Virus record (IMG/VR): IMGVR_UViG_3300037504_000994
Location: 1 to 31,140 of that record
DNA length: 31,140 nt
Direction: 5' to 3' (one strand)
DNA from: a virus
Positions 5,281 through 30,146 of the stretch are shown piece after piece (the stretch's first letter is position 1; each line of letters begins with the position of its first letter). The notes beneath the pieces are model-generated. The model worked only from the letters and a program-made list of their open reading frames with translations, did not search any database and had not been told where the DNA came from. The translations under genes were made by a program, and so were the position numbers.

Positions 5281-8200
5281 CTACCGATCCGCCAGCGCCA
5301 CCACCGGCGACCGCGGTCCCCATTCCAGATCGTACCACCCGCCGCCCCACCACTCAGACGAGCTCCCCGCGTCCGCCAGGTGCCACGCACACGCGCCCGC
5401 CACCTCGCCGCGCTGGGCCAGATAGTCGAACGCCTCCCGCAGCCGCTGGCCCCACGTCACCTCGTCGTAGAAGCCGGTCCCATCCGGCAGCCGCACGATA
5501 AGATCCTCGTCACACCAGTTCAGTTCCCACATATGGAACGGGCTGTAAAGCACGCCTTCCGTGATGATCGTCGTGATCTCCTCATCCTCACCCGTCTTCT
5601 CCCGGATCCACCGGCGGTATGGTTCGTACCCCCGGAGGCACATATCATCGACGCCCTGGCCCCACGTCGGCTCGTAGTCGAACGGCCGTGCGAACGCCGC
5701 GCTGTGAACCGCTAACCACACATTAGCAGACCGGATCCACCGGGGGAGCTCGTAGCCGTGTGTGGCCATCAACCGGGCTATAAACCCCTTGAACCACATC
5801 CAGGACGAATACCGGGGATTGAGACCGCCGCGCTCCGTCGGCCCCATCGCCGGAATCGCCGGGCAGCCACCCCATTCGACGATCTGCACGGCGTCCAGCC
5901 ACCAGCTATCCGCTGCCTGGTTGACCAGCTCGACATCGTGCCAGTCCACGCGCTCGTGGTAGTCCGGCTGCCATTCCACCGTCAGGTTCAGCTCGTTCAT
6001 CACTTCCATGAATGGCTTGAACCGCGTGCCGTGAGCGGCGTTGTATGACAGAACCGTCCCGATCATCTGACGCACGGCCCGCGCCCCGTTCACGATCACC
6101 TGATTCCGGCCGGGGAGCTGCGCGTCGTCGTAGATCCGCACCACCGGCTGGATGCCGGCACCCATCAGCTTATCCATCAGGTCGTAGGTGCCCGGATGCC
6201 CGTTAAACAGCAGCTTGTACCACCGAACCCCCAGCATCCGTAGCCGGCCGATCAGCGCGTCGAGATCCTCCGGTGGCGCCGTCGAGATTGGCCCGTGGAC
6301 ACCCCTCACCGATGTCGGATCTGGGGGAGGGGGCTGATCCTTGCCCCACCCCGCTAGCCACGGCCACGAATCGCCCGGGCACTGTGTTCCGATGACGTCC
6401 TTATGCCCCCAGACACTCAGCCCCTTGCCCACCACCTCCTCGAGGTAGTCGATTAGAGCCACCAGCGACGCCATCTGGGCATCCGTCGGCTCCCGACCGT
6501 CGATGAATCTGCCCAACAGGCATACCGCGATGCCCCACCAATTCTCGTCTCCGGGGTGCGACGCACTCCCCTGTCCAAAGACCACATTCTCCAGATCGCT
6601 CGTTTGCCAGATTGTACCGTCTGCACCGATCACGTAACTGTAGCAGATCCCCGGTCGGTTTTTCCCGTCCGGCGCGACGTGATACCGCGCGATGGCCTTG
6701 ACCGTCGCGATGTCGCTCGACAGCGCGCCCGCGCTGTGGTGCACAAACACCGTATTGATCTCGCTCAACTGACGCCGGCGCCACGGATACCACGGGCTCT
6801 GTGGATTCGTCGCCATCCGGTCCCGCACGTCCACGATCTCCAGCTCCGGCTCCGGATCCTGCCCGGCCGGAGGAGGCTCACCGCCGTTCGGCAGTGGGCG
6901 AAAAACGAGTACCGCCTCGGGATCGCGCTCCGCGTAGAACGCGATGTAGTCGACGTCATCCTCGCTGAAGCCCGGCAGCTCGATGGTGCTGGTCCGCGCG
7001 TTAGGTGGTCGGTTCGCCGCCTCGTCGTGCGACGGTCCGCAGTAAATCCCCCGCTGACGCGCCTCCTGGTAGAGAACTTCTCGGATAGCTTCGTCCTGAA
7101 TCCGGTCGTAGTCGACCACCAGCACACGGCGATCATACCCCGGTTCCGGCTCCGGTTCGGGATCCGGCTCCTCCGGCTCCACGCTCAGGATCGCCCGTGC
7201 CGCATCCACCGCGATCGCGCGCCAGTGCGACAGGTGCATACGGATGTCGAAGCCCCGCCATGGCCCCCAGCTAAATAAGTGTACGTCCGTCACCTCCGGA
7301 TCCTCCGCGGCTTTCGTCAAATACCAGCGCATCTGCCGTTCCCACTCCTCGCCGGAGATTTCGGTCATCTTGCGCGCCAGATTCACCTCGGTCAGCGCCA
7401 CGGGTACGAATAGCCCGCGCGCCCGCAGGATCTCCAGCCAGTAGCGATACCTGAACGCCAATGGCCCTTTGTCCGATGCGTCGCCGTCGTAGCCCGGCAG
7501 CGCATCGCCGAACCACTTATCCATAGGATCAGCGTACTCGTGCAGGCAGAGGACAAGGCCCTCCGGATCGTCAAAGACGCCCGTCTCGACCACGGCCCGC
7601 ATCTCGTCCCACTCCGGCACGCCCAGGCTGTAGCTGAAAGCGCCGACCGTCACCCCGTCCCGCCGGCCCAGCCTACCCAGTTCCTTGAAGAATAGCCCGA
7701 GCTTGACGTGGTCGGCGTCTTGCTCATTGATGATCTCTAGGATATCGATGAGTGGTAGATAATCAGCCATCACATCCATCAGCGCGTCCCACACGCGCCC
7801 GGCCGCCGTCACAGGATCCGGGTCCAGACTGGGCCCTTCGATGTTGATGTCGTACCCCGGTAGCATCGACAGCCGGAACGTCGTGCGGATGTGCGGATTG
7901 ATCCGCTTGAATAGCCGCAGCGTGTTGGCCATCTCCGGCACACCGTAGACTTTGATCGTCGGCAAGGCCGCCGCGATCTGCGCCGGCGTCGCTTCCGGGA
8001 ACTCGCGCACCATCTGCTCGTGCAAGGCCCGGAGCTCGTCGCTGGCGCCGTTGTCGCCCAGCGTGACGTGCAGGCCCGGCGGCACCATCGCCCGTTCGAC
8101 GGGTGGCGCCGGCGGACCCGGCTCGTCCGGCTCCCCCACGACCTCCCACACAGGGGCAGCGATATAGCGGTCGTTGTGCTTCGTCCGCCACTTGTTCGAC

Positions 8201-8832
8201 GTCCGCACAAACCGCGTCATTGTCGCGCCGGTGGCCACCGCCTCGACCGCCACCGGTGCGAATTCGTTGTAGATGCTCCAGCACGTGCCCCAGATCACGG
8301 TGTCCGCGTAGGGGTCCGTGCCCCCCGTCGGGTCGAGACCCACCTGGAATGCGCAGCTCTGCAAAATGTCCACCATCTTCTGATCGTCGTACCGCTGGGG
8401 GATCGCGTCGTGCGGCATCGCAAACGCCGCCGAGCCCACGCCGTCGCTCACATCCGCCTTGTCGCCGTTCGAGTTCCAAGCGTGCGCCTGCACCTCAAAT
8501 CGGTAACGTGTCCCGGGCGTCACATCCTCGACGCGATACACCCCGCCGATGGTGCGTCCCCAAGCACTGAATAGGGCCAGGCTCCGCTCGTCACCGTGCC
8601 ACCGCTCTGGGTACACAGGCTCGGCCTCGCCGTCGACCTCCGTCAACTTGATCTCCGGCACCGGATACGGCGGCTCCGCCTCCTCCGAGTGCACGCACCA
8701 CAGATGCCATCCCTCCGGTCGCGTCACGAACCCATATGCCTCCGTCTCGTAATACTCCTGACCCTCCGCATTATCCGGCGTGTAGCACCGGATCAAATGC
8801 GGTTGCTCTTGGGCCTTCGCGTTGAAACTCAC
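5281..8832 (-). CDS. Giant modular lysin: amidase between two glycosidase-like barrels
   Basis: This is an 1183-aa protein. The GTG at 8832 is preferred because AGGAGG lies six bases upstream; a GTG at 8847 would include that signal as codons. Numbered from 8832, there is a ~245-aa beta-rich N-terminus. A clan GH-A-like barrel follows, with the Asn-Glu pair in EIINEQD (E370) and a second Glu in LTEVN (E482). After a PEPEPEPEP linker and a ~100-aa segment comes an N-acetylmuramoyl-L-alanine amidase (Amidase_2/PGRP), with zinc ligands in FVHHSAG (~698), GHKDV (H810) and QCPGD (C818). A second GH-A-like barrel ends the protein, with MNELN (E947) and ITEGV (E1092). It is the last late gene, behind the tail fibre, so it could be a virion-borne wall-degrading enzyme or the lysis enzyme. 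No holin is seen nearby. Confidence 0.82.
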   Translation of the reverse strand: MSFNAKAQEQPHLIRCYTPDNAEGQEYYETEAYGFVTRPEGWHLWCVHSEEAEPPYPVPEIKLTEVDGEAEPVYPERWHGDERSLALFSAWGRTIGGVYRVEDVTPGTRYRFEVQAHAWNSNGDKADVSDGVGSAAFAMPHDAIPQRYDDQKMVDILQSCAFQVGLDPTGGTDPYADTVIWGTCWSIYNEFAPVAVEAVATGATMTRFVRTSNKWRTKHNDRYIAAPVWEVVGEPDEPGPPAPPVERAMVPPGLHVTLGDNGASDELRALHEQMVREFPEATPAQIAAALPTIKVYGVPEMANTLRLFKRINPHIRTTFRLSMLPGYDINIEGPSLDPDPVTAAGRVWDALMDVMADYLPLIDILEIINEQDADHVKLGLFFKELGRLGRRDGVTVGAFSYSLGVPEWDEMRAVVETGVFDDPEGLVLCLHEYADPMDKWFGDALPGYDGDASDKGPLAFRYRYWLEILRARGLFVPVALTEVNLARKMTEISGEEWERQMRWYLTKAAEDPEVTDVHLFSWGPWRGFDIRMHLSHWRAIAVDAARAILSVEPEEPDPEPEPEPGYDRRVLVVDYDRIQDEAIREVLYQEARQRGIYCGPSHDEAANRPPNARTSTIELPGFSEDDVDYIAFYAERDPEAVLVFRPLPNGGEPPPAGQDPEPELEIVDVRDRMATNPQSPWYPWRRRQLSEINTVFVHHSAGALSSDIATVKAIARYHVAPDGKNRPGICYSYVIGADGTIWQTSDLENVVFGQGSASHPGDENWWGIAVCLLGRFIDGREPTDAQMASLVALIDYLEEVVGKGLSVWGHKDVIGTQCPGDSWPWLAGWGKDQPPPPDPTSVRGVHGPISTAPPEDLDALIGRLRMLGVRWYKLLFNGHPGTYDLMDKLMGAGIQPVVRIYDDAQLPGRNQVIVNGARAVRQMIGTVLSYNAAHGTRFKPFMEVMNELNLTVEWQPDYHERVDWHDVELVNQAADSWWLDAVQIVEWGGCPAIPAMGPTERGGLNPRYSSWMWFKGFIARLMATHGYELPRWIRSANVWLAVHSAAFARPFDYEPTWGQGVDDMCLRGYEPYRRWIREKTGEDEEITTIITEGVLYSPFHMWELNWCDEDLIVRLPDGTGFYDEVTWGQRLREAFDYLAQRGEVAGACAWHLADAGSSSEWWGGGWYDLEWGPRSPVVALADR
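5706..5732. repeat. 27-bp dispersed palindrome, copy 2 (in lysin gene)
   Basis: Arms GAACCGCTAA and TTAGCAGACC flank the spacer CCACACA. It lies inside the coding sequence of the second barrel and encodes RSANVWLAV. The right arm matches the consensus perfectly. Confidence 0.8.
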
Positions 8833-8860
8833 GTCCCACCTCCTCACATCGTAAATTGCA

Positions 8861-9188: not shown

Positions 9189-12100
9189 TTACCACGCTGT
9201 TCCTGCGCTGTGGTCGTGAATGATGGTGTATGTAGTTGATCCCCCGGCCTTTGACGCGACGAGAACATCCCCGTCGTCGCCCTTCCCTGTCCCGTCGCTC
9301 ATCCAGACAACGGCCTCGCCCTCGCTTGGCTCTGTGGGGTCACTGGAGCGTTCCGTGAAGTGGATTGCGCCTGTATCCGGATCGGTGCTCCGATTTCCGA
9401 TCATGATTCCTCGCCCAACCCGAATGTCGCCAACGGTAAAAATATCACCGTGGCCAGGGGATAATGATGCGTTGTTGCCGACGCTAACGCCGTCATCAAT
9501 AATCAGTTCCGGCAAAACGGTGATGTCGCTCGCGCCTATAGACAGTTTCGTTGATGTGCTTATGCTAAAAACAAATGCATCTGCTACAGTACCAAAGTCA
9601 AAAATTTCTACGCCAGCATTATCATAGTAGCTAATGGTAGCCTTTTCGGTCGCGCCATTTTTGAATAGGAGCCGGGCGGTTGACGATTGTGGGAAAATCA
9701 ATCCTTCGCTGTCAAGTCGGACATTTCCGCCGCCAGCCAGGATCGCCCCATCTGTTCCCACCTCCACCTGAACCGTCGCGGAACCGTCACCGTAGAAGCC
9801 GAACTTGCCTGTGCTTTGGTCCCACCGAATTGCCGCCGAACCGCTCACATTGTCACCCAGCACAAGGTCAGCCTTGTCCATCGTAAAGCCGCCCCAGCTT
9901 TTACCGTCCTCCAGGCTCAGCCCAAACGCCTCGTTGCCGTCCTCGTCATAGGCGAACCATCCGCCAGCGTCAATGCTGGTCCTCGCCCCGCTGGTGCTCG
10001 TCGCTAGCAAGAATCGTCCGTCAAGGATGTACACCCCCGGCGCATCCAGCGCCCCCGTGTCCGCCAACGGCGCCCCCCGCTGGTACAGCCCGGCGACTTG
10101 CTCAGCGGTGAGGCCAGTTGCCAATACTGCAATTTGCGACAACGCGACACCAACCGTTCCCGCTCCGGCGCTGACGACGATGCCACGGAAATCAAAGCTC
10201 GCTTCCGACTGAGACGTGTTTTGCAGCTCTACACCATCCTCATAACTACGAACAGTAGTGCCGTCCCATGTCACCGCCGCGACATGCCACTCATCATCAG
10301 TCAGGCTAGCGGACGACCCCGCTAATGACGACCCGGTAAACGAGCGATTATCCAACTCCCAATACCAACGGTCGCCGTCTTGATTCCAAAGTGCGTAGAG
10401 ATCGCCACTACCGCCATCGTTGAGCAAAACGGGATATCCACTAATGTTACTCGCGTCGGCCAACACCCGATAGATTAGGATGATGCTGCCAGACGTGAGC
10501 GTTTTTGAGCTCTGCGAATAAGTCAGCGTCGTCGCAGACCGTGTGCTTGTGCTTTCGTGTGCAGTGCCCGACCACGCTCCCCACGTCAAGGAGCCATCGA
10601 CATAGGTCGTAGCATATGCACCCTTTTCGAGTTGTACACTATCGATATTAATATCCGATGCGGAGCGCAATCGAATCATAATGCCTGTGCTAGTGCCGGA
10701 GCCCAATGTCACAGTATATGTGTGTCGGGTCCACGTCGGCTGCGCCGTATACGTGCCGGATGTGTGCCATCCATCGACGCTGTCATAGACCCGGAGCTCA
10801 AACGTGCCGGAACCTTCCACGTAGACAGACAACGTCACCTGGTCGTCGCTTAAATCCGCATTGATATAATCGTAAATGTAATCTAGGTTGCTACCGGCAA
10901 TATGTAGGTGCGTATCGCCATGCACTGCACTTATCGTACGATATTCAAACGTGGAAAGCGAACTATCGTCACTCCATCCCGTTTGAGCTTCCATCGAACC
11001 ATGTTCGGCGTAGTTGGTAGTCCCCTTCTCCACCACCAACGCTCGTGTGTCAGGCCATCTACCAGCCACCTGATGGAACGCTCCCGAAATCGTCGCCGCC
11101 TGCCCCCGCAGCGATGTCCACGACGTGCTTGTGATCGGGCAGTCAGAATTGAGCAGTAACAGGCCGTCGGCGGTGGAGAAGAGTTGCTCACCGAAGCCGG
11201 TGGTGAATTTGGTCGCGTCCACCGTTCCTTCGATCAGCGCATCCCCGCGAATCCTCAGGCTATTGGTTTCGTCGTAGGCCATCCACTTGTCGCCGCTGTA
11301 ATCTCCGATGAAAATGCCGTATTCCTCACTGGAGTAGTCTGCCAATCCGTTGAGGTCGCCCAGCCGGATAAGCTCGGTCTGCGCGTTATAGGTCGCGCCG
11401 TGCTTGAGGATGCTGATGCGCGGCGTGTCGTAGGCGTTAAGCTCGATCCGCCCGTCCCCCTCCTGACCGAAGGCCGCGAAGGGCGCGCCGTTGGGCCAGG
11501 TGTTCGCGCCGGACCCATCCACGTCCCGCGTTACATTCCAGACATTCGCGCCGACGTAGCTGCCCAACTCCATGTATTCCACCTTGAGCGACTGTCGGAA
11601 CACGATGAAGTCTCCGGCGCTGAGGACGCTATCGGAGACGCCCAGGTCGATTTGCGTTTCCGAGCCGTCGATGTCCTCCTGAGTCGTGCCGCCGTACTTG
11701 GTGATGTAAAACCAGCCGCCCAGTAGCGTGATGGTGTTTTCTGCGAAGATGATCGTGTCCAACTCGGAGAGCCAGCCCTTGCGCCACAGGAGCGTGCTGG
11801 TGCCGATGTCGTAGGTGTCCGTCGTCTTGGGGATGAGGTGGTCTGCCACGCGATATGGGTCAAAGTCGCCGGATAGCGTCAGATCCACTAGTTGCAGCCC
11901 GCCGCCCGCGTCAGATTGCAGAATCGACGCCGCAGCGCCCGGATTGCTGGAGGTGGTCACTTCGTGCGTGTGGCTGCTCGCCGTCACCGCGTTGGATGTC
12001 CCGGTATTGAGCGTCGAAGGCGTTCCCAGCGCCACCGCATCGGCGGCTACCGTCAGCCCGTCGCCGTCCCCCACGGCCAGCGCGCTACCTCCGCCGCCGG

Positions 12101-12515
12101 TCAGCCCGTCGCCGGCCGCCTCCGCAGCAATGCGGTAGGCGTTGCTGGACACCTCAATGCCGTGGCCCGGTGAGCCCACATCCACCCCATCGACGTTGCC
12201 GACGTTGGTGATGGCGTTGCCCCCCATATTGAGCGCGCCGGTCATCGAGCGCGCCCCGTTGTGTTTCAGGAACTGAGGTGCCTGCGCATCATCCAGCGTC
12301 CCGGTGTGGATCGCCGTGTCGTTCAGCCCGTGCTGTGACGTGACGCCGGACCCACCCGAGGATCCTCCGCCGGATGTGGTCGCACCGCCGATGTTTAGCT
12401 CGTCGTCCCGGCCCAGCCAGATCTGCTGTTGCAGGTTGCGGTTCGGGTCGTAAAAGTTGATCGGCACCTCGTAACCGACGAGGGCGATCTCCTCGTCACT
12501 CAGTTCGTAGGGCAT
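9189..12515 (-). CDS. Long tail fibre with LamG-like domain
   Basis: This is an 1108-aa protein. The N-terminus (YELSDEEIALVGYEVPINFY) is followed by a Gly/Ser linker and a fibre-like repeat zone (LNDTAIHTGTLDDAQAPQFL, GDGLTGGGGSALAVGDGDGL). Residues ~480-640 look like a carbohydrate-binding beta sandwich (SMEAQTGWSDDSSLSTFEYR). Residues ~670-835 resemble a LamG/concanavalin domain (LTDDEWHVAAVTWDGTTVRS, ending LTAEQVAGLYQRG). The C-terminal ~270 residues are beta-rich with low-complexity Gly/Ser/Thr. It would bind the host surface. The start has GGAG directly upstream and behind that copy 4 of the 27-bp palindrome. DNA from about 9400 to 11100 is visibly more A+T-rich than the N-terminal half, suggesting domain exchange. 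Confidence 0.8.
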   Translation of the reverse strand: MPYELSDEEIALVGYEVPINFYDPNRNLQQQIWLGRDDELNIGGATTSGGGSSGGSGVTSQHGLNDTAIHTGTLDDAQAPQFLKHNGARSMTGALNMGGNAITNVGNVDGVDVGSPGHGIEVSSNAYRIAAEAAGDGLTGGGGSALAVGDGDGLTVAADAVALGTPSTLNTGTSNAVTASSHTHEVTTSSNPGAAASILQSDAGGGLQLVDLTLSGDFDPYRVADHLIPKTTDTYDIGTSTLLWRKGWLSELDTIIFAENTITLLGGWFYITKYGGTTQEDIDGSETQIDLGVSDSVLSAGDFIVFRQSLKVEYMELGSYVGANVWNVTRDVDGSGANTWPNGAPFAAFGQEGDGRIELNAYDTPRISILKHGATYNAQTELIRLGDLNGLADYSSEEYGIFIGDYSGDKWMAYDETNSLRIRGDALIEGTVDATKFTTGFGEQLFSTADGLLLLNSDCPITSTSWTSLRGQAATISGAFHQVAGRWPDTRALVVEKGTTNYAEHGSMEAQTGWSDDSSLSTFEYRTISAVHGDTHLHIAGSNLDYIYDYINADLSDDQVTLSVYVEGSGTFELRVYDSVDGWHTSGTYTAQPTWTRHTYTVTLGSGTSTGIMIRLRSASDINIDSVQLEKGAYATTYVDGSLTWGAWSGTAHESTSTRSATTLTYSQSSKTLTSGSIILIYRVLADASNISGYPVLLNDGGSGDLYALWNQDGDRWYWELDNRSFTGSSLAGSSASLTDDEWHVAAVTWDGTTVRSYEDGVELQNTSQSEASFDFRGIVVSAGAGTVGVALSQIAVLATGLTAEQVAGLYQRGAPLADTGALDAPGVYILDGRFLLATSTSGARTSIDAGGWFAYDEDGNEAFGLSLEDGKSWGGFTMDKADLVLGDNVSGSAAIRWDQSTGKFGFYGDGSATVQVEVGTDGAILAGGGNVRLDSEGLIFPQSSTARLLFKNGATEKATISYYDNAGVEIFDFGTVADAFVFSISTSTKLSIGASDITVLPELIIDDGVSVGNNASLSPGHGDIFTVGDIRVGRGIMIGNRSTDPDTGAIHFTERSSDPTEPSEGEAVVWMSDGTGKGDDGDVLVASKAGGSTTYTIIHDHSAGTAW

Positions 12516-18386: not shown

Positions 18387-18806
18387 TTATCCGTGGCCCT
18401 CGATCTGAGCCACCACACCCCAGTAGGCGCCCCCGGCGATCTCCACGATCTGATTTCCGCCGCGGATCGACCAGGTCACCGTAGATTTCCCGATATTCAC
18501 CGTAGAAATGGCGTCTGCGAGCGCGTCGTCCAGCGCGTCGGCCAGCGTCTGCACATCAGCGTAGTTCGACGGCTGCGTCGACTGCCCCACGGGCTCGATC
18601 ACGACCCAGTAATCAACCCGCGTCGTGGGCCAGCCCCCGTGGGTCTTGGACGTCATCGGTCCCTGCTCCCGCGTAAATCCCCACGGGAACGACGCCGGTA
18701 GATCCGAGGTGTTCAGCGACACCGGCGGATGCGTGTATTGGCGCACCACGCCCGATACGCTCAGGCTGCTGGCCACGGCCGTAATTATCTCTGCGATCGT
18801 CGTCAT
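18387..18806 (-). CDS. Probable tail terminator / tail completion protein
   Basis: This is a 139-aa protein. Its ATG overlaps the stop of the connector gene (ATGA) and has GGAGG upstream. The sequence MTTIAEIITAVASSLSVSGV, followed by a beta-rich middle (RVDYWVVIEPVGQSTQPSNY) and a helix (ADALDDALADAIST), resembles gpU-like tail terminators and minor tail proteins found between connector and tube genes. The call rests mostly on gene order and fold pattern. Confidence 0.55.
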   Translation of the reverse strand: MTTIAEIITAVASSLSVSGVVRQYTHPPVSLNTSDLPASFPWGFTREQGPMTSKTHGGWPTTRVDYWVVIEPVGQSTQPSNYADVQTLADALDDALADAISTVNIGKSTVTWSIRGGNQIVEIAGGAYWGVVAQIEGHG

Positions 18807-19390
18807 ACCAGCCTCCGGTAGGGATCCAAAACCACCTTCACGTCCTTCGGCATCCCTTGCGGCACCGTCATCACGCCGGCCGACGGCATGGCTGTCACGT
18901 CGAAGATCTGCGCGTCTTTCTGCCGGTAGTAGTACGACGCCAGCCGGATACAGGCGTGCACGATGTCCGCCGGCGGCGTCACCGAGTAGCCCCACCACCC
19001 CGTCACTGTGATCCCATCTTCCGGATCGTCGGTGTAATCCCACGACTCCGAGGATGACGATGCTAATTTGACCGCATAATACGGCGTTTCGTTGCGCGGC
19101 TTCGTGTGGTAGTCGGTGGTCTCCAGCGTCGTCCCGCCGCTGCCGTCATCCGCGTTGGTCACAATCGACGTGATCTGGCAGAGATCCTCGTCGAAAAAGA
19201 GCGTGCGCTCGACCGTGTCCACGCCCACGGTGAAATACCGCGTGCTGTCAGATCCCACCTTGAAGATGCGATCCGTGTAGGTCTCGATAGCCTTCTGTGC
19301 CCGGTCGATCAGGTCGTCGATCAGGTCGTCGTCCGTGGCCTCGCTGATGCCCAAATACGTTTTGACCTGCGCCTTCGTGCAATAGGCCAT
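18803..19390 (-). CDS. Head-tail connector (gp6/gp15-like adaptor)
   Basis: This is a 195-aa protein with AGGAGG before the ATG; the preceding stop overlaps as TGATG. The opening (AYCTKAQVKTYLGISEATDD, then DLIDDLIDRAQKAIETYTDR) is characteristic of the phage head-tail connector family that forms the ring beneath the portal. A beta-rich insertion fills the middle, and IVHACIRLASYYYRQKDAQI is the conserved C-terminal helix. In most HK97-like phages this gene follows the capsid gene closely; here four sugar- and sulfate-modifying genes lie between. Confidence 0.8.
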   Translation of the reverse strand: MAYCTKAQVKTYLGISEATDDDLIDDLIDRAQKAIETYTDRIFKVGSDSTRYFTVGVDTVERTLFFDEDLCQITSIVTNADDGSGGTTLETTDYHTKPRNETPYYAVKLASSSSESWDYTDDPEDGITVTGWWGYSVTPPADIVHACIRLASYYYRQKDAQIFDVTAMPSAGVMTVPQGMPKDVKVVLDPYRRLV

Positions 19391-20118
19391 CAATCCTCCT
19401 CGTCCTCACCGTCAATCCGCAGTGTGAGGAACTCGTACTCGTAGGGATTGCCCTGACCGTCGTCCACCACGGGCCAGACGATCCGCGGGCTGGGATTCAG
19501 CGTAATGTGACCGCAGCGCACGCCGAAGTCGTGCGCCTGCATGAACCCGTGCGCCTCGCAGTCCATCGCCAGATACCAATCGTTGGCCGCGCCTTCCTTG
19601 ACGCGCCGGAAGTTCACCTTTTCCAGCACGTTCCGCCAGATCAGCGTGCACCCCAGCCCCACGCCCGCGGTCCGGCCCACCTTGCCCCAGTATTCCGCGC
19701 GTTTCTCGTAGTCGTCGCTGATGTAAGTGCCCTTGCGGCTATTGACCTCCTCGAAGGCCAGCCAGCGATGCTGTCCGTGCCGTGAGCAATAAAGCCCATA
19801 GGCCACGTCCGCCGGGATGCGCGTCAGCCGCTGCAACGCCAGCGGCGGCACGATCATATCGCTCTCCACCGTGAACATCGCGTCGTAGCCGCCTACCAAC
19901 GCCATCCACCGCGCCTCCTGGTACTTCGCCAACACCTCGTTGTAAGCCGTCTCCCGGTCCACCGGCCCGTGGTCCGCGCGCCCGAAGACGATGTCCATCG
20001 GCACGTCCCAGTTCAGCCGGAAGATGCTTTCCAGCGTCCTGCCGAACACAATCGGATGCACCGGATGCAGAGGACAATACAGTAGGATCTTTGGATGATC
20101 AGGATGCTCGATATCCAT
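19390..20118 (-). CDS. Glycosyltransferase (GT-A fold) 3
   Basis: This is a 242-aa protein from ATG 20118; a longer upstream frame has no better start. KILLYCPLHPVHPIVFGRTL begins the nucleotide-sugar fold, and FTVESDMIVPP (ESD at 85-87) is the DxD-type metal site at the expected place. NDWYLAMDCEAHGFM (~200) resembles the C-terminal catalytic segment of GT2-like enzymes. It overlaps the sulfotransferase gene by 20 bases and the connector gene by one, so it is made together with head proteins. Confidence 0.7.
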   Translation of the reverse strand: MDIEHPDHPKILLYCPLHPVHPIVFGRTLESIFRLNWDVPMDIVFGRADHGPVDRETAYNEVLAKYQEARWMALVGGYDAMFTVESDMIVPPLALQRLTRIPADVAYGLYCSRHGQHRWLAFEEVNSRKGTYISDDYEKRAEYWGKVGRTAGVGLGCTLIWRNVLEKVNFRRVKEGAANDWYLAMDCEAHGFMQAHDFGVRCGHITLNPSPRIVWPVVDDGQGNPYEYEFLTLRIDGEDEED

Positions 20119-20725
20119 AATGCCGCGCCAGCTCCTTAATGTCTCGATAGAGAGGCGTTGCCGCCTCAACGTCTTCCCACGTCACCGCCCTATGCTCCCT
20201 GTGATGTACATCCGTAGAAAGCCCGTCCAAAATCGCCGTTGCCGCTTGTTCTGCTAATAATGAGTTAGTGGACCTGACATATCCCATCCACATCTCCCAT
20301 ACCTCATTCAGAGATTCGATGCGATACGTGTACGCAGCCTGATGCTCGCATAGCTCATTCCACCGCAGCCAATACTCCGCTGCCCTGCGCAGCACCGGCG
20401 CTCCCCGGTCCACGTCGATGTGTTTGCACGTCCAGTCCCACGAGATCGGCTGTGCCGTCGTCAGGCTGCCGATGGTAGCCAGCGGCTCCCGAACCTGGTG
20501 CAGCACGATATTGAACATAGGATACGGTCCCTGCTGATGGTAAGGCGGATATTTGCTGTCCGTAACCGCCCATAAACTCGACACAATGCCGTCCCGTCCC
20601 AGTCGCTCGTGTCCCACGTCCAGGCCCAGCCGTTGCAGCACGCGCGCGATGTACAGCGTCCCGCTGCGACCGCAGCCCGTGACCAGGATCACAGCCGGCC
20701 CCGTTCCCGCAGCCACGCCGCGCAT
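20099..20725 (-). CDS. Sulfotransferase-like protein
   Basis: This is a 208-aa protein. VTGCGRSGTLYIARVLQRLG (residues 16-34) matches the 5'-phosphosulfate-binding P-loop of PAPS-dependent sulfotransferases. HQVREPLATIGSL (76-88) matches the 3'-phosphate-binding motif (R-x-P-x-x-x-x-x-S). It is shorter than most family members but holds both PAPS motifs. It probably transfers sulfate to a sugar or protein, most simply a glycan made by the three neighbouring glycosyltransferases. It overlaps both neighbours and contains copy 7 of the 27-bp palindrome. A simple nucleotide-binding P-loop protein is the alternative. Confidence 0.7.
   Translation of the reverse strand: MRGVAAGTGPAVILVTGCGRSGTLYIARVLQRLGLDVGHERLGRDGIVSSLWAVTDSKYPPYHQQGPYPMFNIVLHQVREPLATIGSLTTAQPISWDWTCKHIDVDRGAPVLRRAAEYWLRWNELCEHQAAYTYRIESLNEVWEMWMGYVRSTNSLLAEQAATAILDGLSTDVHHREHRAVTWEDVEAATPLYRDIKELARHYGYRAS
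20248..20274. repeat. 27-bp dispersed palindrome, copy 7 (in sulfotransferase gene)
   Basis: Arms GTTCTGCTAA and TTAGTGGACC flank the spacer TAATGAG. It lies inside the coding sequence and encodes VRSTNSLLAEQ. Both arms are well conserved (9 and 8 of 10) although the position is coding. Confidence 0.75.
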
Positions 20726-21339
20726 ACCGCGTCCCGTTCCTGATAATGCTCCGGGCGGAACTCATAGCCCACGCCGAACCGCTCCAACGTCTCCAGTCGG
20801 CGCGATAGCTCCCGACTGACCCAGTGGACGGCCTCTCCGTCGCCGATATCCAGGCTCCAGTAGATGTCCGATGCCGACGGGTGCTGTGGTATTTTGGCCC
20901 GGCGCACCGTCTCCCGCCGGAAGAGCTGGAAGTGGCCCTTCAGAATCGCGGCCCAGCCGTCCCGGTCGACGATGTCCGGTCGATAGTGCGGAGGCTCAAT
21001 CTGCAATCCCCTGCCCGCCACGCCCAGCAGGTTGCTCACGCATTTCCGCATGTGCAGCGAGATCGCGTCTTCCAGGAACGTATCGTCGCCCAGCAAGAAA
21101 TCGTCGTCCTGAAACATCCCCCAGGGCGTCTCGATCCGGCCGGCGACCACGTACCGCGCCCACTCCCCGGCGTTCCACGGAATCGCGATCAGCCGGTCGG
21201 CGCCGAAGTCCTCGAAGCCGTCATTGTTGATGAGCCAGATCTCCACATCAACCGTCTGCGCTCTCAGAGCCTCGATGATCCACGGCAGATTGGCCTTGCG
21301 CTTCCACGACAAAAGCACGGCAGTCACATCAGATATCAT
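20689..21339 (-). CDS. Glycosyltransferase family 2-like 2
   Basis: This is a 216-aa protein from ATG 21339, with GAGGAG upstream. TAVLLSWKRKANLPWIIEAL is the typical GT2 opening (beta-1 and alpha-1), IWLINNDG the second strand, and MFQDDDFLL (DDD at 78-80) the metal- and nucleotide-binding site. The C-terminal half (HFQLFRRETVRRAKIPQHPS, ASDIYWSLDIGDGEAVHW) follows GT2 enzymes with an acidic catalytic segment. It overlaps the first glycosyltransferase by 11 bases and the sulfotransferase by 37, indicating coordinated synthesis. Confidence 0.78.
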   Translation of the reverse strand: MISDVTAVLLSWKRKANLPWIIEALRAQTVDVEIWLINNDGFEDFGADRLIAIPWNAGEWARYVVAGRIETPWGMFQDDDFLLGDDTFLEDAISLHMRKCVSNLLGVAGRGLQIEPPHYRPDIVDRDGWAAILKGHFQLFRRETVRRAKIPQHPSASDIYWSLDIGDGEAVHWVSRELSRRLETLERFGVGYEFRPEHYQERDAVCAAWLRERGRL

Positions 21340-21883
21340 CCGGCGCTCCTCTGCTGATCCGCTGCACGGCGACCAGGATCTCGTCCAGCCAGACGACGCG
21401 CGGATCTCGCTGCCACATCGCGTCCAAAAACGCGAAGTCCCCCACCGTGGGCTGCCCGAAGTGGGCGATGTCGCGCTTGTACCAGTCCGCGCGGGTGATG
21501 AAGTCAAAGGATCCGATTTTACACCTCACCGGTGCTTCACCCCACGACGCTGTGTGAGGCAAAATCCCCAGCTCGCCGTGATCGCCGCGATAGATGACGA
21601 TGTGCGGCTGATCGTGCTCTCTCACCGTCCGTTTGAGCATCGCAACGGCATCCCTGCGCAGCAAAACGTCATCATCGTCGAGAATCAACACGTAATCCCC
21701 TGAGATACCGTCTGCGTGCGCCGCCAGGGCCTTATTCGCCCACTCGACGCCTCTGCCGACCTCATCCACGATAACCACGTGCTCGAAGTCCAGATCTGTC
21801 TGTGCGCACAGGCTCGCCGTGTGTCGCGCGTACAGCGTCGGTCGGCTTGCCATATGGCGTGTCACGATGCTCAAGAAAGGCAT
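21329..21883 (-). CDS. Glycosyltransferase family 2-like 1
   Basis: This is a 184-aa protein. ATG 21883 has AGGAGG four bases upstream; the longer frame would start inside the hairpin. FLSIVTRHMASRPTLYARHT opens the GT2 fold, EWANKALAAHADGISGDYVL precedes ILDDDDVLL (DDDD at 69-72), the DxD site. The C-terminus (DFAFLDAMWQRDP) is acidic as in GT2 catalytic segments. It is the first of four coupled modification genes and directly follows a strong hairpin that separates them from the capsid genes. It is compact, at the small end of the family. Confidence 0.8.
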   Translation of the reverse strand: MPFLSIVTRHMASRPTLYARHTASLCAQTDLDFEHVVIVDEVGRGVEWANKALAAHADGISGDYVLILDDDDVLLRRDAVAMLKRTVREHDQPHIVIYRGDHGELGILPHTASWGEAPVRCKIGSFDFITRADWYKRDIAHFGQPTVGDFAFLDAMWQRDPRVVWLDEILVAVQRISRGAPDDI

Positions 21884-21892
21884 AAATCCTCC

Positions 21893-21922
21893 TTGAGGGA
21901 GGAGGCTGCCCTCCTCCCTCAA
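21893..21922. terminator. Strong hairpin between capsid genes and modification genes
   Basis: TTGAGGGAGGAG (21893-21904) pairs with CTCCTCCCTCAA (21911-21922), 12 perfect pairs with a 6-base loop. No U-tract follows in the direction of transcription; the ribosome-binding site of the glycosyltransferase begins at once. A competing small hairpin, TCCTCC-CTCAA-GGAGGA, could hide that site, so it may work as an attenuator or translation control and not only as a terminator. Confidence 0.65.
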
Positions 21923-21938
21923 TCGACTGACGACCCGT

Positions 21939-22406
21939 CTAGTTGATGATCTCGGTGACGTCGGTCAGGTCGTAATCGCCGGCCGGGCTGTAGCGACTGT
22001 GATCCGCCAGCACAACCACACCGCAGGTCAGATTCTGATTGCTCGGCGTTACGCTCACCTTGACGTAGCGGTACGCCTGCCCCAGCGTGGTCACGAGGTC
22101 CTCGGCGGTGAGCTCGATGATGCCGACGGCGTCGTCCTGCGCGGACCCGGTGAACGATGCGGTAGTGAGGAGTTTACTGGTGATGTTGGAGTAGGTCCCG
22201 CCGGACGCGGTCGCGCCCTTCAGCCGGACCACAACGCTGCCGTCGTTGCCGGCTGCGTAGTCGCCCATGTTGAAAATGACGAGGATGCGGCTGTGATACC
22301 GCATATCGATGGCGTCGGACAGCGACTCCGCAGCGGCGGTCAGGGCCTGTGGCTTGATGCGCGCCACGACGGCCAACTGCTCGGAAAGCTTCGGATGGTA
22401 CGTCAT
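21939..22406 (-). CDS. Structural protein after the capsid gene (possible decoration protein)
   Basis: This is a 155-aa protein. The opening KLSEQLAVVARIKPQALTAA is followed by RILVIFNMGDYAAGNDGSVV, VRLKGATASGGTYSNITSKL and a beta-rich remainder (YRYVKVSVTPSNQNLTCGVV). Short beta-sandwich proteins directly after the major capsid gene are usually head decoration or head-fibre proteins, but no specific family is recognised. GGAG lies before the ATG, and copy 8 of the palindrome is upstream. Confidence 0.55.
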   Translation of the reverse strand: MTYHPKLSEQLAVVARIKPQALTAAAESLSDAIDMRYHSRILVIFNMGDYAAGNDGSVVVRLKGATASGGTYSNITSKLLTTASFTGSAQDDAVGIIELTAEDLVTTLGQAYRYVKVSVTPSNQNLTCGVVVLADHSRYSPAGDYDLTDVTEIIN

Positions 22407-22507: not shown

Positions 22508-23710
22508 TTAGTCGTTGAACTTCACGAACGGGCTGACGGTGTAGCTGCCCTGCGGATCCGCCAGCGTGATGGAGCTCTTCAGCCAGGGCTGACCGTCCAT
22601 CCGCTCGTCGAACCGCCAACCGACGCGGCCCGTGGTGAAGTAGGCGTGCTCGCTGTAGGCCACCTGGAGCCCGCCCTCGCGCTCGAACATCAGGTACGCC
22701 CCGAAGTCGATCAGGTCGATACAACCGGAGTTGTCCGCCTGCGGGAGATGCTCGCTCTGCAGGAACTGATAGCCCAGCAGGCTCTGCATCGCCGGGCTGG
22801 ACATATTCCCCTGAAGCGCAGCCGCGCCCGCGGTGCCGATCTCCATCGTGCCGAGATCGTTCCACATCGACGGGTGGAATGTCCAGCGTCCCTGTCCGCC
22901 CAACGGCTTGAACTTGGACACCATCTCCAACGCGTCGGCCCAGTTGAAGACGCCGTCGCTGTCCGGCGTGACGTCGACCGCTGCCGGGGCATTCAGGATA
23001 CCCAGCGGCTGTCCCACACCGGTGCCGCGCAGGATGAAAAACTCCTTTTTCGCGGCGATGGCGATGCCGAAGAGCCCCCGCAGGAGCTGCTCGAGCGCCA
23101 TTGGGCTGTCGGTCACCACCTCGTTAGAGACGGGCACGACGCCGCCGACCTTGTGCAGCCTCCACTGGATCTGCTCGAAGTCCGGTTCGGTCTCGGTGTA
23201 GCTGCCGCCCTCGGCGGTCACGTCCGCGGTCACAGCGCCGGCATAGGCGGAGTCACCCACCCCCGCCGTCGGTGCCGCGAACTGATCCAGCGCCGGCCAG
23301 CGTCCGCTGTCGCCGGTCCGGATCGGGATCGGGCGCACGAGGTTGAGGATCGGGCTGATCTGGTACGCCACCTGCAGCAGCTCGGTCCGGAAGTCCTCGG
23401 GCACGATAACGCCGTCATCCTCGACGGTGATCGTCTTGTAGACGCTCTTGAGCCGCTTGGTGTCGTGCCGCTTGACCGCGACGAGGAAGTCGCCCAGGCT
23501 CTTCACCTCAGGATCGTCATCCCCGCCGTCCATCGACACGTAGCCGGGCCCCTGATCCTTGCCGGGCAGATTGTCGAGGAAGGCCGTGACCCGTTCCATC
23601 GCGTCGCCGATGGACTTTACCTGGCCGTCCAGCTCGCCCTGCAACGCCGTGAACTTCTCCTGGAGCATCTCGTTGAGCTGCTCCTCCGTGATAAACTGTT
23701 GCTCAGTCAT
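22508..23710 (-). CDS. Major capsid protein (HK97 fold)
   Basis: This is a 400-aa protein. Residues ~1-110 form the charged, coiled-coil scaffolding delta domain (TEEQLNEMLQEKFTALQGEL) that the prohead protease removes. The mature part begins around the segment VYKTITVEDDGVIVPEDFRT. The central pattern ISPILNLVRPIPIRTGDSGR, VGGVVPVSNEVVTDSPMALE, KKEFFILRGTGVGQPLGILN and GRVGWRFDERMDGQPWLKSS is the classic HK97 major capsid signature. It lies directly after the protease gene, as usual, and is followed by a hairpin that may raise its mRNA level. Confidence 0.93.
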   Translation of the reverse strand: MTEQQFITEEQLNEMLQEKFTALQGELDGQVKSIGDAMERVTAFLDNLPGKDQGPGYVSMDGGDDDPEVKSLGDFLVAVKRHDTKRLKSVYKTITVEDDGVIVPEDFRTELLQVAYQISPILNLVRPIPIRTGDSGRWPALDQFAAPTAGVGDSAYAGAVTADVTAEGGSYTETEPDFEQIQWRLHKVGGVVPVSNEVVTDSPMALEQLLRGLFGIAIAAKKEFFILRGTGVGQPLGILNAPAAVDVTPDSDGVFNWADALEMVSKFKPLGGQGRWTFHPSMWNDLGTMEIGTAGAAALQGNMSSPAMQSLLGYQFLQSEHLPQADNSGCIDLIDFGAYLMFEREGGLQVAYSEHAYFTTGRVGWRFDERMDGQPWLKSSITLADPQGSYTVSPFVKFND

Positions 23711-26337: not shown

Positions 26338-27800
26338 TATGGATACCCGGCCCAGACGTCGGTGAAGATCGCCTTGACGTCGTCCTCGGTCTTCGCAGTC
26401 TCCAGCGCGCCGCTGATCGCCGCGGCCAGCACCGGCGGGACGAACTTACACTCAAAGTCCCGGTCCAATCCGCCCGAGATGTGCTTGCTGGCCCACCGTT
26501 GCCAGGTGCCCAGCTCACTCTTGGCGTCCGGCGTCAGACCCGTACCCTCACCGGCTACCACGTCATCGTCATCCTCAATCTCGCCGGCGTCTTCCCGCGT
26601 GTCGTTTGAGAGATTTGCCGCCCAGATCTGTTCCAGCTTCTGGCGCTGCTCCTCGTCAACGTCGTATCCCAGGATGTCCATTGCCACCCCGGCAATCGGC
26701 CCGGCGCTCAATGTCGTCACGAGCTGTGTCAGCGCATCCGCGCGCTCCGCCTCGGACTGCTGAAAAATGTCCATCCGCTCCGGCTCGAACGCCAGCCGGT
26801 AGCCCATCGGCTTGAGGAGCTGCTCGTTAATCACTGCCTCAATGAACCGAGCTTCAGCGTTGATGCAGTTCTCGTAGAGCCACATCCGGTCGACATCCGC
26901 CGTGGCGTAGTTGGCCGCGTTACTGAACAGCATCGTATGCGGAATCCGCAGTGCCGTCGCGATAGCCTCGCGCTTTTCCTCGCTAATCTCCTGGTTCTTC
27001 AGTGCCTCCAACCCCTCGCCGACTTGCACGGCCTCGACGGCGTCACCGTTGACGATCTCCGTCTGCCAGGCCCGCTTGATACCTGTAAACATCCGATCCC
27101 ACCAGCTCTTCAGCTTTTCACGCTCGCCTTTTACCACCCGGCCCTTGGTCACCAGGAGTGTCGGCTTGATCGCCCCTCGCTTGAAAAATGCCGCCGCGAA
27201 CTTGTCGACGTTCAGGACCACCCCGGCCGCCGCGGATGCTGCCTCCGCCGGGCTTGCCGTCGGCGGACCCAGCTCCACAAACGGATCCGGTTTCCAAAAG
27301 TAGACGAACTTATCATCGTCATACCACGTATCTTTGCCGCGTCGCCGGAAACGGATGATCGGCTCGCCGGTTTGATCGGCTTTGATGTCGTGCTCGACCT
27401 TGCTCGAGATGAGATACTGTAGTTTGTACGGGCGCGATCCGGTGAGATTCGGCCGGCGATACAAATACGAATAGCCCCAGATCGTCAGGGCCATCTCGAT
27501 CAACCCGAACAGCACGGTCGGATTCGGCAGAAACCCCAGCGCGTTGGTATACTGATCGTTGCTGTCAACGACCGTCTGGTTGTCGTCCTCTCCCTGATAA
27601 ATCGAGAATGGCATAGCCATCAGCGCATTGGCCCGGATGTCGACGCCGGCGAAGAGCCACGGTACTTTTTTGTACAGCGTCTGCAAGTCCTCGCTATCGT
27701 CGTCCGTGTAGGGCCGTCCCATCACGACGTTCCAGGCTTCCTCGGGAAGCTCGTTTAGGCTGACCGTCTTCAAAAACGGGCTTCTCAGTGAAGGAGCCAC
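26337..27800 (-). CDS. Portal protein
   Basis: This is a 487-aa protein starting at a GTG with AGGAGG five bases upstream; it overlaps the terminase by 16 bases. The opening LYKKVPWLFAGVDIRANALM, AMPFSIYQGEDD, and the conserved ALTIWGYSYLYRRPNLTGSR, WKPDPFVE and LKNQEISEEKREAIATALRI, PHTMLFSNAANYATADVDRM are typical of HK97-type portals. The dodecameric ring is the DNA gateway and head-tail joint. A long acidic segment near 420-435 (NDTREDAGEIEDDDDVVAGE) precedes the C-terminal ~60 residues and lies at the tunnel or clip end. Confidence 0.9.
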   Translation of the reverse strand: MAPSLRSPFLKTVSLNELPEEAWNVVMGRPYTDDDSEDLQTLYKKVPWLFAGVDIRANALMAMPFSIYQGEDDNQTVVDSNDQYTNALGFLPNPTVLFGLIEMALTIWGYSYLYRRPNLTGSRPYKLQYLISSKVEHDIKADQTGEPIIRFRRRGKDTWYDDDKFVYFWKPDPFVELGPPTASPAEAASAAAGVVLNVDKFAAAFFKRGAIKPTLLVTKGRVVKGEREKLKSWWDRMFTGIKRAWQTEIVNGDAVEAVQVGEGLEALKNQEISEEKREAIATALRIPHTMLFSNAANYATADVDRMWLYENCINAEARFIEAVINEQLLKPMGYRLAFEPERMDIFQQSEAERADALTQLVTTLSAGPIAGVAMDILGYDVDEEQRQKLEQIWAANLSNDTREDAGEIEDDDDVVAGEGTGLTPDAKSELGTWQRWASKHISGGLDRDFECKFVPPVLAAAISGALETAKTEDDVKAIFTDVWAGYP

Positions 27801-29377
27801 GATACCTCCTCTGGAGCAAAGGTGAGGGCCAGGGCGTCCAACAAATCTGGGCTTCGCCCAAGGCTTTTACGCAGCTTTTCCTTATCCGTCACCTTGATCT
27901 CTCCCTTCTTCACTGCATAGCGAGGAGCGCATAGCTCATCCGCTAAGTCCTCATTAGGGGGCAGGGCTGCCTCCGGATCCGTGCGCAACCACTCTCTCAC
28001 GCGCCACAGCATCTGATCCCGCAGAAGCCCGAACTCGCCCTCCTCGACGATCTCCGTTGCGGAGCTGGCCACCTTGACGGCGACGGCTGCCCCGTCGTAG
28101 GGCTTCATCAATCCGGCGTCGAGATCCTGCTCCCAGCGCCGGTACATCTGTGGGGCCACGCCTGATCCTAACCCTGTCGCATCGACAAAGGAGACCTCTG
28201 CGTTGCGCTCGTAGGCCGCGCGGGCCGCGCGGTCGCCGGTCACCAGCACGTCCACCCCACTCCACGTCTCGAAATGATCTACCCAGGATCCGTACCGCCA
28301 GCAGGCAGCGTTACGGTCCGTGCCGAACTCCGCCACATCCTGCCCGTGGATCGGTCGCACGCCCTCCGGCGGCTTCGCTCCTACCCGCTCACGACGTGCC
28401 ACCCACCGAGCCATTGCGGCTTGTACCCAGGCCCTGGCGATAAGCTGGTTCTCGGATTGGCCCGGATACCGGGCCAATACCATATAGGCCAGCGCGGGGT
28501 TGGTGATCTCGCGCCACTCCCCGCCGACCAGCGGCCCCAGCTCCTGCCCGTTCTTCGCAGTCGCCTTGGCGCCGTCCAGATAATTCGGTACCCTAAACCA
28601 ATCCGGGCTGTCGTCTGGCACGTCCTCGCCCGTTGCCGCGGGCCGGCTCCACTCACAAATGCGCCGGACCGTCGTTTCGCGATCCACCGCACCCGGAATC
28701 ACGTTGCGTCCGGTGACCACGTTCGGATGACCGAATGCATCCAGGATCACTACGTTGGCCTCGCCGCTCTGAATCATCCGATAGACCGGGCCCGAGGCGT
28801 CCCGCGGGTTGAACATCACCAACAGTCGGACGTGCCCGCCCGACATACAGCTCTCAATGCCCTTGTACACCTCGTCCGGCACCGCGTCGCCCTCGTCCAC
28901 GATAAACAATAGGTGCGGCGCGTGCACGCCGCTGAATTTCGCCTCGCGTTGCGCCGGCGTCCCGCTCTGTGGAATCGCTCGTCCAACCATCCACCAATCC
29001 GGCGCCACCTCGATATTCAGGTAGCCGGCCGTCATATCCTCGACGACCTCCGAGGCAGCCATCATCCGCGCTTCAACCTCACTCCACAACAGGTTTTCCA
29101 GGTTTTCGAGGGGCGGCGCCGCCGTCGCGATGACCTTGGCCCGCGGGAAGGTGCTGAGAAACCACAGCGCGATACCGCTGGCCACATACGTCTTGCCGAC
29201 CGCGTTGGCCGACTGCACGACCGTCACCGTGTAGTCTCGCACGCTCTCGCTGACCTGCTCCTGCGCATCGATGAGATTGCAGCCCAACACGCTCCCGATG
29301 AAGCCGTTGGGGTCTGTCTGATAGCGCGTCAGATTCGCGCTAGTCCGTGTCGGCATCTGCTGCAGACGTTCCAGCAT
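27785..29377 (-). CDS. terL: Terminase large subunit
   Basis: This is a 530-aa ATPase-nuclease that packages DNA. From ATG 29377, QSANAVGKTYVASGI (~56) is the Walker A motif, LLFIVDEGDAV (~157) Walker B with catalytic Glu, and FNPRDASG the coupling motif. The RNase H-like nuclease shows HGQDVAEFGTDRNA (~345, two Asp), FVDATGLGSG (~398) and SPDLLDALAL (~510). The start is uncertain: ATG 29377 has GAAGGTG close upstream, while the in-frame ATG at 29449 would overlap the small subunit gene by 110 bases. A degenerate copy of the 27-bp palindrome lies near its end. Confidence 0.93.
   Translation of the reverse strand: MLERLQQMPTRTSANLTRYQTDPNGFIGSVLGCNLIDAQEQVSESVRDYTVTVVQSANAVGKTYVASGIALWFLSTFPRAKVIATAAPPLENLENLLWSEVEARMMAASEVVEDMTAGYLNIEVAPDWWMVGRAIPQSGTPAQREAKFSGVHAPHLLFIVDEGDAVPDEVYKGIESCMSGGHVRLLVMFNPRDASGPVYRMIQSGEANVVILDAFGHPNVVTGRNVIPGAVDRETTVRRICEWSRPAATGEDVPDDSPDWFRVPNYLDGAKATAKNGQELGPLVGGEWREITNPALAYMVLARYPGQSENQLIARAWVQAAMARWVARRERVGAKPPEGVRPIHGQDVAEFGTDRNAACWRYGSWVDHFETWSGVDVLVTGDRAARAAYERNAEVSFVDATGLGSGVAPQMYRRWEQDLDAGLMKPYDGAAVAVKVASSATEIVEEGEFGLLRDQMLWRVREWLRTDPEAALPPNEDLADELCAPRYAVKKGEIKVTDKEKLRKSLGRSPDLLDALALTFAPEEVSWLLH
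27937..27963. repeat. 27-bp dispersed palindrome, degenerate copy 10
   Basis: Arms CATCCGCTAA and TTAGGGGGCA flank the spacer GTCCTCA. It is inside the terL gene. Left arm 7 of 10, right arm 6 of 10; the CTAA-N7-TTAG centre is intact. It is the weakest copy. Confidence 0.45.
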
Positions 29378-30146
29378 CTTCACCTTCGCCCATGTCGGCC
29401 ACTCTCTCCAATTGCTGCTCAATCGCGCTTTCAAGTCCCTGCACCTCAATTGGCAATGCTACACCCCGCAGCCGCGTGATAGTATCCGCGGCTTCCTCGT
29501 CAGATAGTGCCAATAGCGTCTCGCTCGCCTTGATCCCGTGCTGGTCGCGATTCTCCTTAGCCGTGTCCCGCAGGCCCTGGACCGCGTCCAGGCTCCCCTC
29601 GGCGATCGCTCGGCGCCGCAATTGCGACGCACGTGCTTCAATGGCTGCTGTCTGCTCGTCTCTCCAACGAAGGGCGGCCCTTGTAGCTATCTCCAGAGCT
29701 TCCGAAATAGCTGGATCATTCTGCCATCGTTGGTACCAAATCCGTTGATTACATACACGGGGATCTTCAAAGACATGGCTCCATGGCACGTCGTTTGCTG
29801 TTGCACTGGCCAACAAGAGTACGGTCGCCCGCTTTTTGGCCACGTGCGGCTTTTTAATCTCATCCAACGCTCGACGTAAGTCTATATTTAGCCAACCAAC
29901 CGCTTCTGGTGGCGTATCTTTGCTCCACCATCTCCAAGTTAGGCTCATCTGGTACCACAGATCCGCCGAGGTACCGAAAGCCTCCCCGAGCGCCTTCGCG
30001 AAATCCCTGGTGATAGCTCTGTCTTTCTCTAGAATCTTATGTAGCACAGCAAGTTCCAAGCCGGACGTGCGGGACAGGTCTTCTAGGGACCATCCCCGCT
30101 CCTCCAACTCCCGCTCTATCACATCTCCCGGCCTTGAAACTCGCAT
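29340..30146 (-). CDS. Small terminase candidate with N-terminal HigA-like HTH
   Basis: This is a 268-aa protein starting at ATG 30146, with AGGAG four bases upstream. Residues 1-70 (RPGDVIERELEERGWSLEDL, ITRDFAKALGEAFGTSADLW) closely follow HigA-type antitoxin/XRE domains, including the helix after the HTH with the FGTSADLWYQ signature. The middle (VFEDPRVCNQRIWYQRWQND, ISEALEIATRAALRW) resembles the DNA-binding part of small terminases. The rest is a helical oligomerisation region. Its place before terL supports a TerS role. The extra HTH is unusual and may let it bind an operator as well as the pac or cos site. Confidence 0.65.
   Translation of the reverse strand: MRVSRPGDVIERELEERGWSLEDLSRTSGLELAVLHKILEKDRAITRDFAKALGEAFGTSADLWYQMSLTWRWWSKDTPPEAVGWLNIDLRRALDEIKKPHVAKKRATVLLLASATANDVPWSHVFEDPRVCNQRIWYQRWQNDPAISEALEIATRAALRWRDEQTAAIEARASQLRRRAIAEGSLDAVQGLRDTAKENRDQHGIKASETLLALSDEEAADTITRLRGVALPIEVQGLESAIEQQLERVADMGEGEDAGTSAADADTD

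Follow-up and report, generated by a model that had tools for sequence, protein, structure and literature searches.

A predicted sulfotransferase encoded with three glycosyltransferases in the head operon of a probably temperate tailed phage

Virion glycosylation and the capsid-connector site in described phages

In the mycobacteriophages Che8, Corndog and Myrna the capsid and tail tube proteins are glycosylated by phage-encoded enzymes (Freeman et al. 2023, as cited in PMC12363180 and PMC12619734); no sulfation is reported there in the sources consulted. In cluster J mycobacteriophages (Thibault gp11-gp19; Omega, Baka and Optimus) glycosyltransferase and methyltransferase genes separate the gene of the major head protein from that of the connector, an insertion reported in 2013 without known roles (PMC3706429). 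The window analysed here is the linear IMG/VR virus record IMGVR_UViG_3300037504_000994 (31,140 bases, positions 1 to 31,140). Between its capsid and connector genes it carries a cassette encoding three GT-A glycosyltransferases, named here GT1, GT2 and GT3 (not to be confused with the GT2 and GT25 families), and ST, a protein assigned by motifs and predicted fold to the superfamily of sulfotransferases using 3'-phosphoadenosine 5'-phosphosulfate (PAPS). The reading that we consider somewhat probable is that of a virion-glycan cassette in a head-operon slot, making a sulfated glycan on a putative acceptor of the phage's own virion.

The cassette in the head operon

The structural genes are located on the minus strand in the order terminase, portal, head morphogenesis, capsid, post-capsid protein of 155 amino acids (aa), the four enzymes, connector, tail tube, tape measure and tail proteins. 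Within the cassette the order is GT1, GT2, ST, GT3, with successive overlaps of 11, 4 and 20 nt, and the GT3 stop codon overlaps the connector start codon as TGATG. The sequence-only reading had placed four overlapping genes between the post-capsid gene and the connector, and the gene calls, the overlaps and the Pfam matches of the flanks agree with it. Its view of the enzymes as integrated in the head operon is likewise upheld by these overlaps and by the same placement in related phages. Neither a promoter-like sequence nor a minus-strand terminator was found in the scanned cassette region. The cassette is probably transcribed together with the structural genes and coupled to them in translation.

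This position in the head operon speaks against decoration of the phage DNA bases with sugar and sulfate. DNA hypermodification by phage glycosyltransferases is known from some phages (reference 46 of PMC12619734, as cited there), but no base-hypermodification gene was found among the scanned window genes, which cover part of the open reading frames (ORFs) of a record that may be incomplete, and this is the least probable of the alternatives.

The glycosyltransferase genes between capsid and connector fit the layout of the cluster J type of cassette, and the nearest annotated glycosyltransferases to GT3 are those of cluster J. Thibault gp11 is a GT3 homologue (GT3 profile, E 1e-16), and gp19 shares 1 nt with the start of the connector. 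Unlike cluster J, the window cassette lacks methyltransferase and kinase genes, while Thibault gp9-gp21 show no match to a sulfotransferase. The window phage belongs to a different lineage (no DNA match), and DNA searches and most protein searches found no close relative among phage records.

Five of 11 close relatives (L178, L192, L193, L194 and L225; loci are cited by their L numbers) have one or two GT3 homologues at or near this site; in four of these five GT3 overlaps the start codon of the connector, and L178 has a methyltransferase there as well. In L152 the interval from a homologous capsid gene to a connector-like gene contains four glycosyltransferase-like and three methyltransferase-like genes, together with an ST of 51% identity. 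The site is thus a glycan cassette slot of the head operon, known as a sugar-gene slot from the cluster J insertion, and the sulfotransferase is its new part.

The glycosyltransferases

Three GT-A glycosyltransferases with DDDD, DDD and ESD sites had been proposed from the sequence. The motifs are present, but four-letter motifs alone are insufficient, and the identity of the enzymes therefore rests on family evidence. GT1 matches a GT2-family profile, built in this analysis from 30 PF00535 domains, with E 3.9e-5 (searched against 2974 ORFs), and the glycosyltransferase family phrog_14775 with 7.2e-5; its match to PF00535 itself (0.0055) is below the cut-off. Among 11 window proteins tested, the GT2-family profile ranks GT1 first, GT3 second and GT2 third. 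GT2 is linked to the family through the bacterial L149 protein, which shares 36% identity with it over 84 aa (E 9e-9) and matches PF00535 with 6.7e-15. By these sequence relationships, GT1 and GT2 are assigned as GT-A glycosyltransferases.

GT3 is assigned to the same class from its predicted structure (pLDDT 59, pTM 0.65), for which the top VIA rows are exclusively GT-A glycosyltransferases, beginning with the LH3 and ColGalT1 transferases (Z 16.5). All eight homologues aligned with GT3 retain its acidic motif of the ExD type. GT1-3 show no significant pairwise match to Che8 gp108-110. The N-terminus of Thibault gp17 (L258, 12870-13430) matches the C-terminus of GT1 with 39% identity over 44 aa. 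When IMG/VR was scanned with the single sequences of ST, GT2, GT3 and the capsid protein, no matches were obtained, and alignments were therefore needed to reach relatives.

The sulfotransferase

ST is probably a protein of 197 aa, shorter than the 208 aa of the sequence-only reading, since its homologues begin at the residue coded by the GTG at position 20692. The two PAPS-binding motifs noticed in that reading are indeed present: GCGRSGT as the 5'-phosphosulfate-binding motif (5'-PSB) and R68-x7-S76 as the 3'-phosphate-binding motif (3'-PB). The R-x7-S spacing is that of the 3'-PB of sulfotransferases. The family alignment comprises 36 non-redundant members, most of them viral; its seed was a weak tblastn match in phage C48C1, from which bacterial and viral relatives were reached. 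R9, G11, G23, H28, E29, G35, R68 and P70 are kept in every member. H28 or E29, from the family signature GLDVGHE, is a possible catalytic base.

Structure prediction, proposed earlier as a check on this protein, gave a model (pLDDT 75, pTM 0.71) for which VIA rows 1-43 are sulfotransferases throughout. Comparison of profiles with members of PF13469 (Sulfotransfer_3) yielded a probability of 62% in local mode, where only the 5'-PSB is aligned, and of 73% in global mode, as opposed to 0.7% for APS (adenosine 5'-phosphosulfate) kinases and 0.1% for GT2-family domains. Under the forced global alignment R68...S76 aligns with the same motif of the PF13469 members. No sulfotransferase match for ST was found in Pfam or NCBIfam; the PF13469 cut-off is reached neither by ST, which has no match, nor by its relative L025 (E 7.6e-4), and sequence-only searches of the PDB were empty or at chance level. 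Motifs, predicted fold and profile comparison together place ST in the PAPS sulfotransferase superfamily, as a member of an uncurated family. With the tyrosylprotein, Sulfotransfer_3 and carbohydrate types it shares the fold, the 5'-PSB and the 3'-PB with its R-x7-S spacing, while differing from them in its short length, its own GLDVGHE signature and the absence of a Pfam or NCBIfam sulfotransferase match.

The candidate function of a P-loop kinase was rejected on the VIA sulfotransferase rows and the APS kinase comparison. A related proposal is that the four genes are accidental morons with no common product and that ST has some other, kinase-like P-loop activity. The lack of a Pfam sulfotransferase match and the first Foldseek rows, which are P-loop proteins with E above 0.01, are in line with it, whereas the unbroken run of sulfotransferases in VIA, the profile comparison and a 3'-PB kept in 35-36 of 36 members are not; we regard it as highly improbable.

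The best VIA match is human tyrosylprotein sulfotransferase-2 (TPST-2; Z 10.9, 3.6 A over 166 residues), which might suggest direct sulfation of a virion protein by ST, for example on tyrosine, apart from the glycosyltransferases. However, many small-molecule sulfotransferases score within about 1-2 Z units in the same rows, so that the fold does not indicate the substrate, and ST is repeatedly fused to glycosyltransferases. Direct protein sulfation is therefore quite unlikely.

Relatives of ST and their gene neighbours

Nine fusions of ST with a glycosyltransferase were seen among the relatives. Bacterial members at five loci (L007, L010-L013) are fused to Glyco_transf_25 (GT25), and the viral L025, L161, L167 and L169 to a GT2-type domain. 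In the tree the window ST falls into one group with L022-L025 (support 100/99). In L024 the gene order is GT-ST-GT-GT, followed by an HK97-gp10 gene, while in L023 an APS kinase gene (PF01583, 2.4e-23) overlaps ST, with two glycosyltransferases nearby. L163 (7875-9175) contains a full-length APS kinase (PF01583, 1.8e-67) overlapping the ST stop by 4 nt. APS kinase is the enzyme that makes PAPS. In 22 viral loci there were at least 18 glycosyltransferase Pfam matches among 125 genes near ST and 4 among 94 genes further away. The family is rare in bacteria (two of 299 Pseudomonadota genomes, one being the genome that anchored the search).

In large marine-type phages (L028, L037, L038, L043, L055 and L057) the ST domain is preceded by an N-terminal extension that includes a DnaJ-like stretch, and its neighbours are collagen-like tail-fibre genes and glycosyltransferases. 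Another combination of ST with a sugar enzyme is BFVD entry A0A5J6VJR2, a 1202-aa 'capsular polysaccharide synthesis protein' from a Megaviridae environmental sample that holds the ST fold (E 5.7e-7).

Proposed function of the cassette

Coupling to the head genes would yield soluble, cytosolic enzymes during head assembly. The chain would start with GT3, which would add a sugar to a protein of the virion, be it the capsid, the 155-aa protein, the connector or the tail tube; this protein-priming role is proposed because GT3 is the only glycosyltransferase at the slot in some relatives. GT1 and GT2 would extend the chain, and ST would cap the glycan by transferring sulfate from host-made PAPS. 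We infer the acceptor, the order of the steps, the use of PAPS and the sulfation of sugar rather than protein; sulfation as such is supported by the predicted fold, the motifs and the two APS-kinase neighbours. Glycosylation of capsid and tail tube proteins by phage enzymes has a precedent in Che8, Corndog and Myrna, according to the papers cited above.

The main rival to a virion glycan is modification of the host surface polysaccharide, by way of a cytosolic nucleotide- or lipid-linked precursor, which would prevent superinfection or alter receptors, in the manner of lysogenic conversion. The phage carries an integrase, the bacterial ST relatives are fused to an LPS (lipopolysaccharide)-type GT25 domain, and some phage glycosyltransferases are able to change the host serotype (PMC12619734). 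On the other hand, the four enzymes have no transmembrane-like segments, and no polytopic protein, flippase or membrane-bound transferase was found in the window, which may be incomplete; the flippase and membrane-anchored glycosyltransferases of gtrABC-type serotype conversion are thus not seen there. Soluble enzymes with no flippase in the window fit cytosolic virion proteins better than an exported host glycan. The region also shows no promoter-like site, and the cassette is coupled to late head genes in a slot that is kept in relatives. The virion-directed glycan is favoured because this placement is conserved (the five GT3 relatives, L152 and cluster J), and modification of the host surface is considered unlikely. 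Of the earlier proposal of a sulfated virion glycan, the enzyme identities and the integration in the head operon hold, and the conserved placement favours the virion; the host-surface alternative raised with it retains the integrase on its side.

Several observations weigh against a sulfated virion glycan. The phage is integrase-bearing and probably temperate. The virion glycosyltransferase genes of Che8 do not adjoin its capsid genes, and position therefore does not define function. The cassette is dispensable, since L190, with a very similar portal (match 2e-154), has its connector 50 nt after the post-capsid gene and an empty site. Certain relatives of ST occur singly or away from structural modules: L022 (also L151; G089) is a lone member of the window clade on a bacterial chromosome, by phage-repressor-like genes and with no glycosyltransferase nearby, and in L163 ST and APS kinase adjoin helicase/nuclease-like genes outside any structural module. 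Near ST, glycosyltransferases are enriched no more than modestly (all named families together, p 0.01; PF00535 by itself, p 0.12), and Foldseek alone was weak on the ST model, no PDB match reaching E 0.001.

Other features of the window

The coordinates are collected in Table 1. The phage is tailed and probably temperate, as judged from the integrase. The 155-aa protein had been labelled decoration-like, which is more than the matches show: it is a conserved post-capsid protein matching phrog_28483, and 48 of the 81 capsid loci in the comparison have a homologue, as a rule right behind the capsid gene. It is a possible decoration protein and candidate acceptor. The 3' arm of a perfect hairpin between this gene and GT1 ends adjoining the GT1 Shine-Dalgarno sequence; the hairpin may lower enzyme expression relative to the capsid genes.

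Table 1. Features of the window
Feature	Positions	Strand	Remarks
GT1, GT-A glycosyltransferase (GT2-like)	21329..21883	minus	184 aa; DDDD motif; Shine-Dalgarno AAGGAGG
GT2, GT-A glycosyltransferase	20689..21339	minus	216 aa; DDD site (QDDDF motif); via L149 protein
ST, PAPS-type sulfotransferase (predicted)	20099..20692	minus	197 aa; GTG start 20692; alternative ATG 20725 (208 aa)
GT3, GT-A glycosyltransferase (from model and homologues)	19390..20118	minus	242 aa; ESD site (ESDM motif)
ST 5'-PSB GCGRSGT (residues 6-12)	20657..20677	minus	R9, G11 36/36; T12 34/36
ST family signature GLDVGHE	20606..20626	minus	H28, E29 invariant
ST 3'-PB R68-EPLATIG-S76	20465..20491	minus	R68, P70 36/36; S76 35/36
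Major capsid protein, HK97 type	22508..23710	minus	PF05065 E 3.6e-46; phrog_10; upstream boundary of cassette site
Post-capsid protein, conserved	21939..22406	minus	155 aa; phrog_28483 6e-12 (family of unknown function)
Hairpin	21893..21922	minus	13 bp, 4-nt loop, no U-tract; z -4.6
Head-tail connector, gp6-like	18803..19390	minus	PF05135 7.1e-8; phrog_442; downstream boundary of cassette site
Terminase	27785-29449	minus	start of structural gene run
Integrase	3075-4013	plus	left part of window
Tail protein with Laminin_G_3/ConA-like domain	9189-12515		1108 aa; likely host-recognition tail part
Protein with amidase domain	5281-8847		1188 aa; likely wall-digesting tail part

Implications

The window extends capsid-connector glycan cassettes from the mycobacteriophages in which they were described to other lineages of phages, and it links ST with glycosyltransferases and with one fixed position of the head operon. 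A literature search of limited coverage turned up no phage with a virion reported to be sulfated. It is plausible, with a chance somewhat short of even, that phages hold an uncurated family of sulfotransferases that sulfate their own virion glycans and are gained in exchangeable cassettes at a fixed head-operon slot, some phages adding an APS kinase to secure PAPS. If this is true, the sulfated coat would give the virion a negative charge, with consequences for adsorption, for the persistence of the phage and for its recognition by antibodies.

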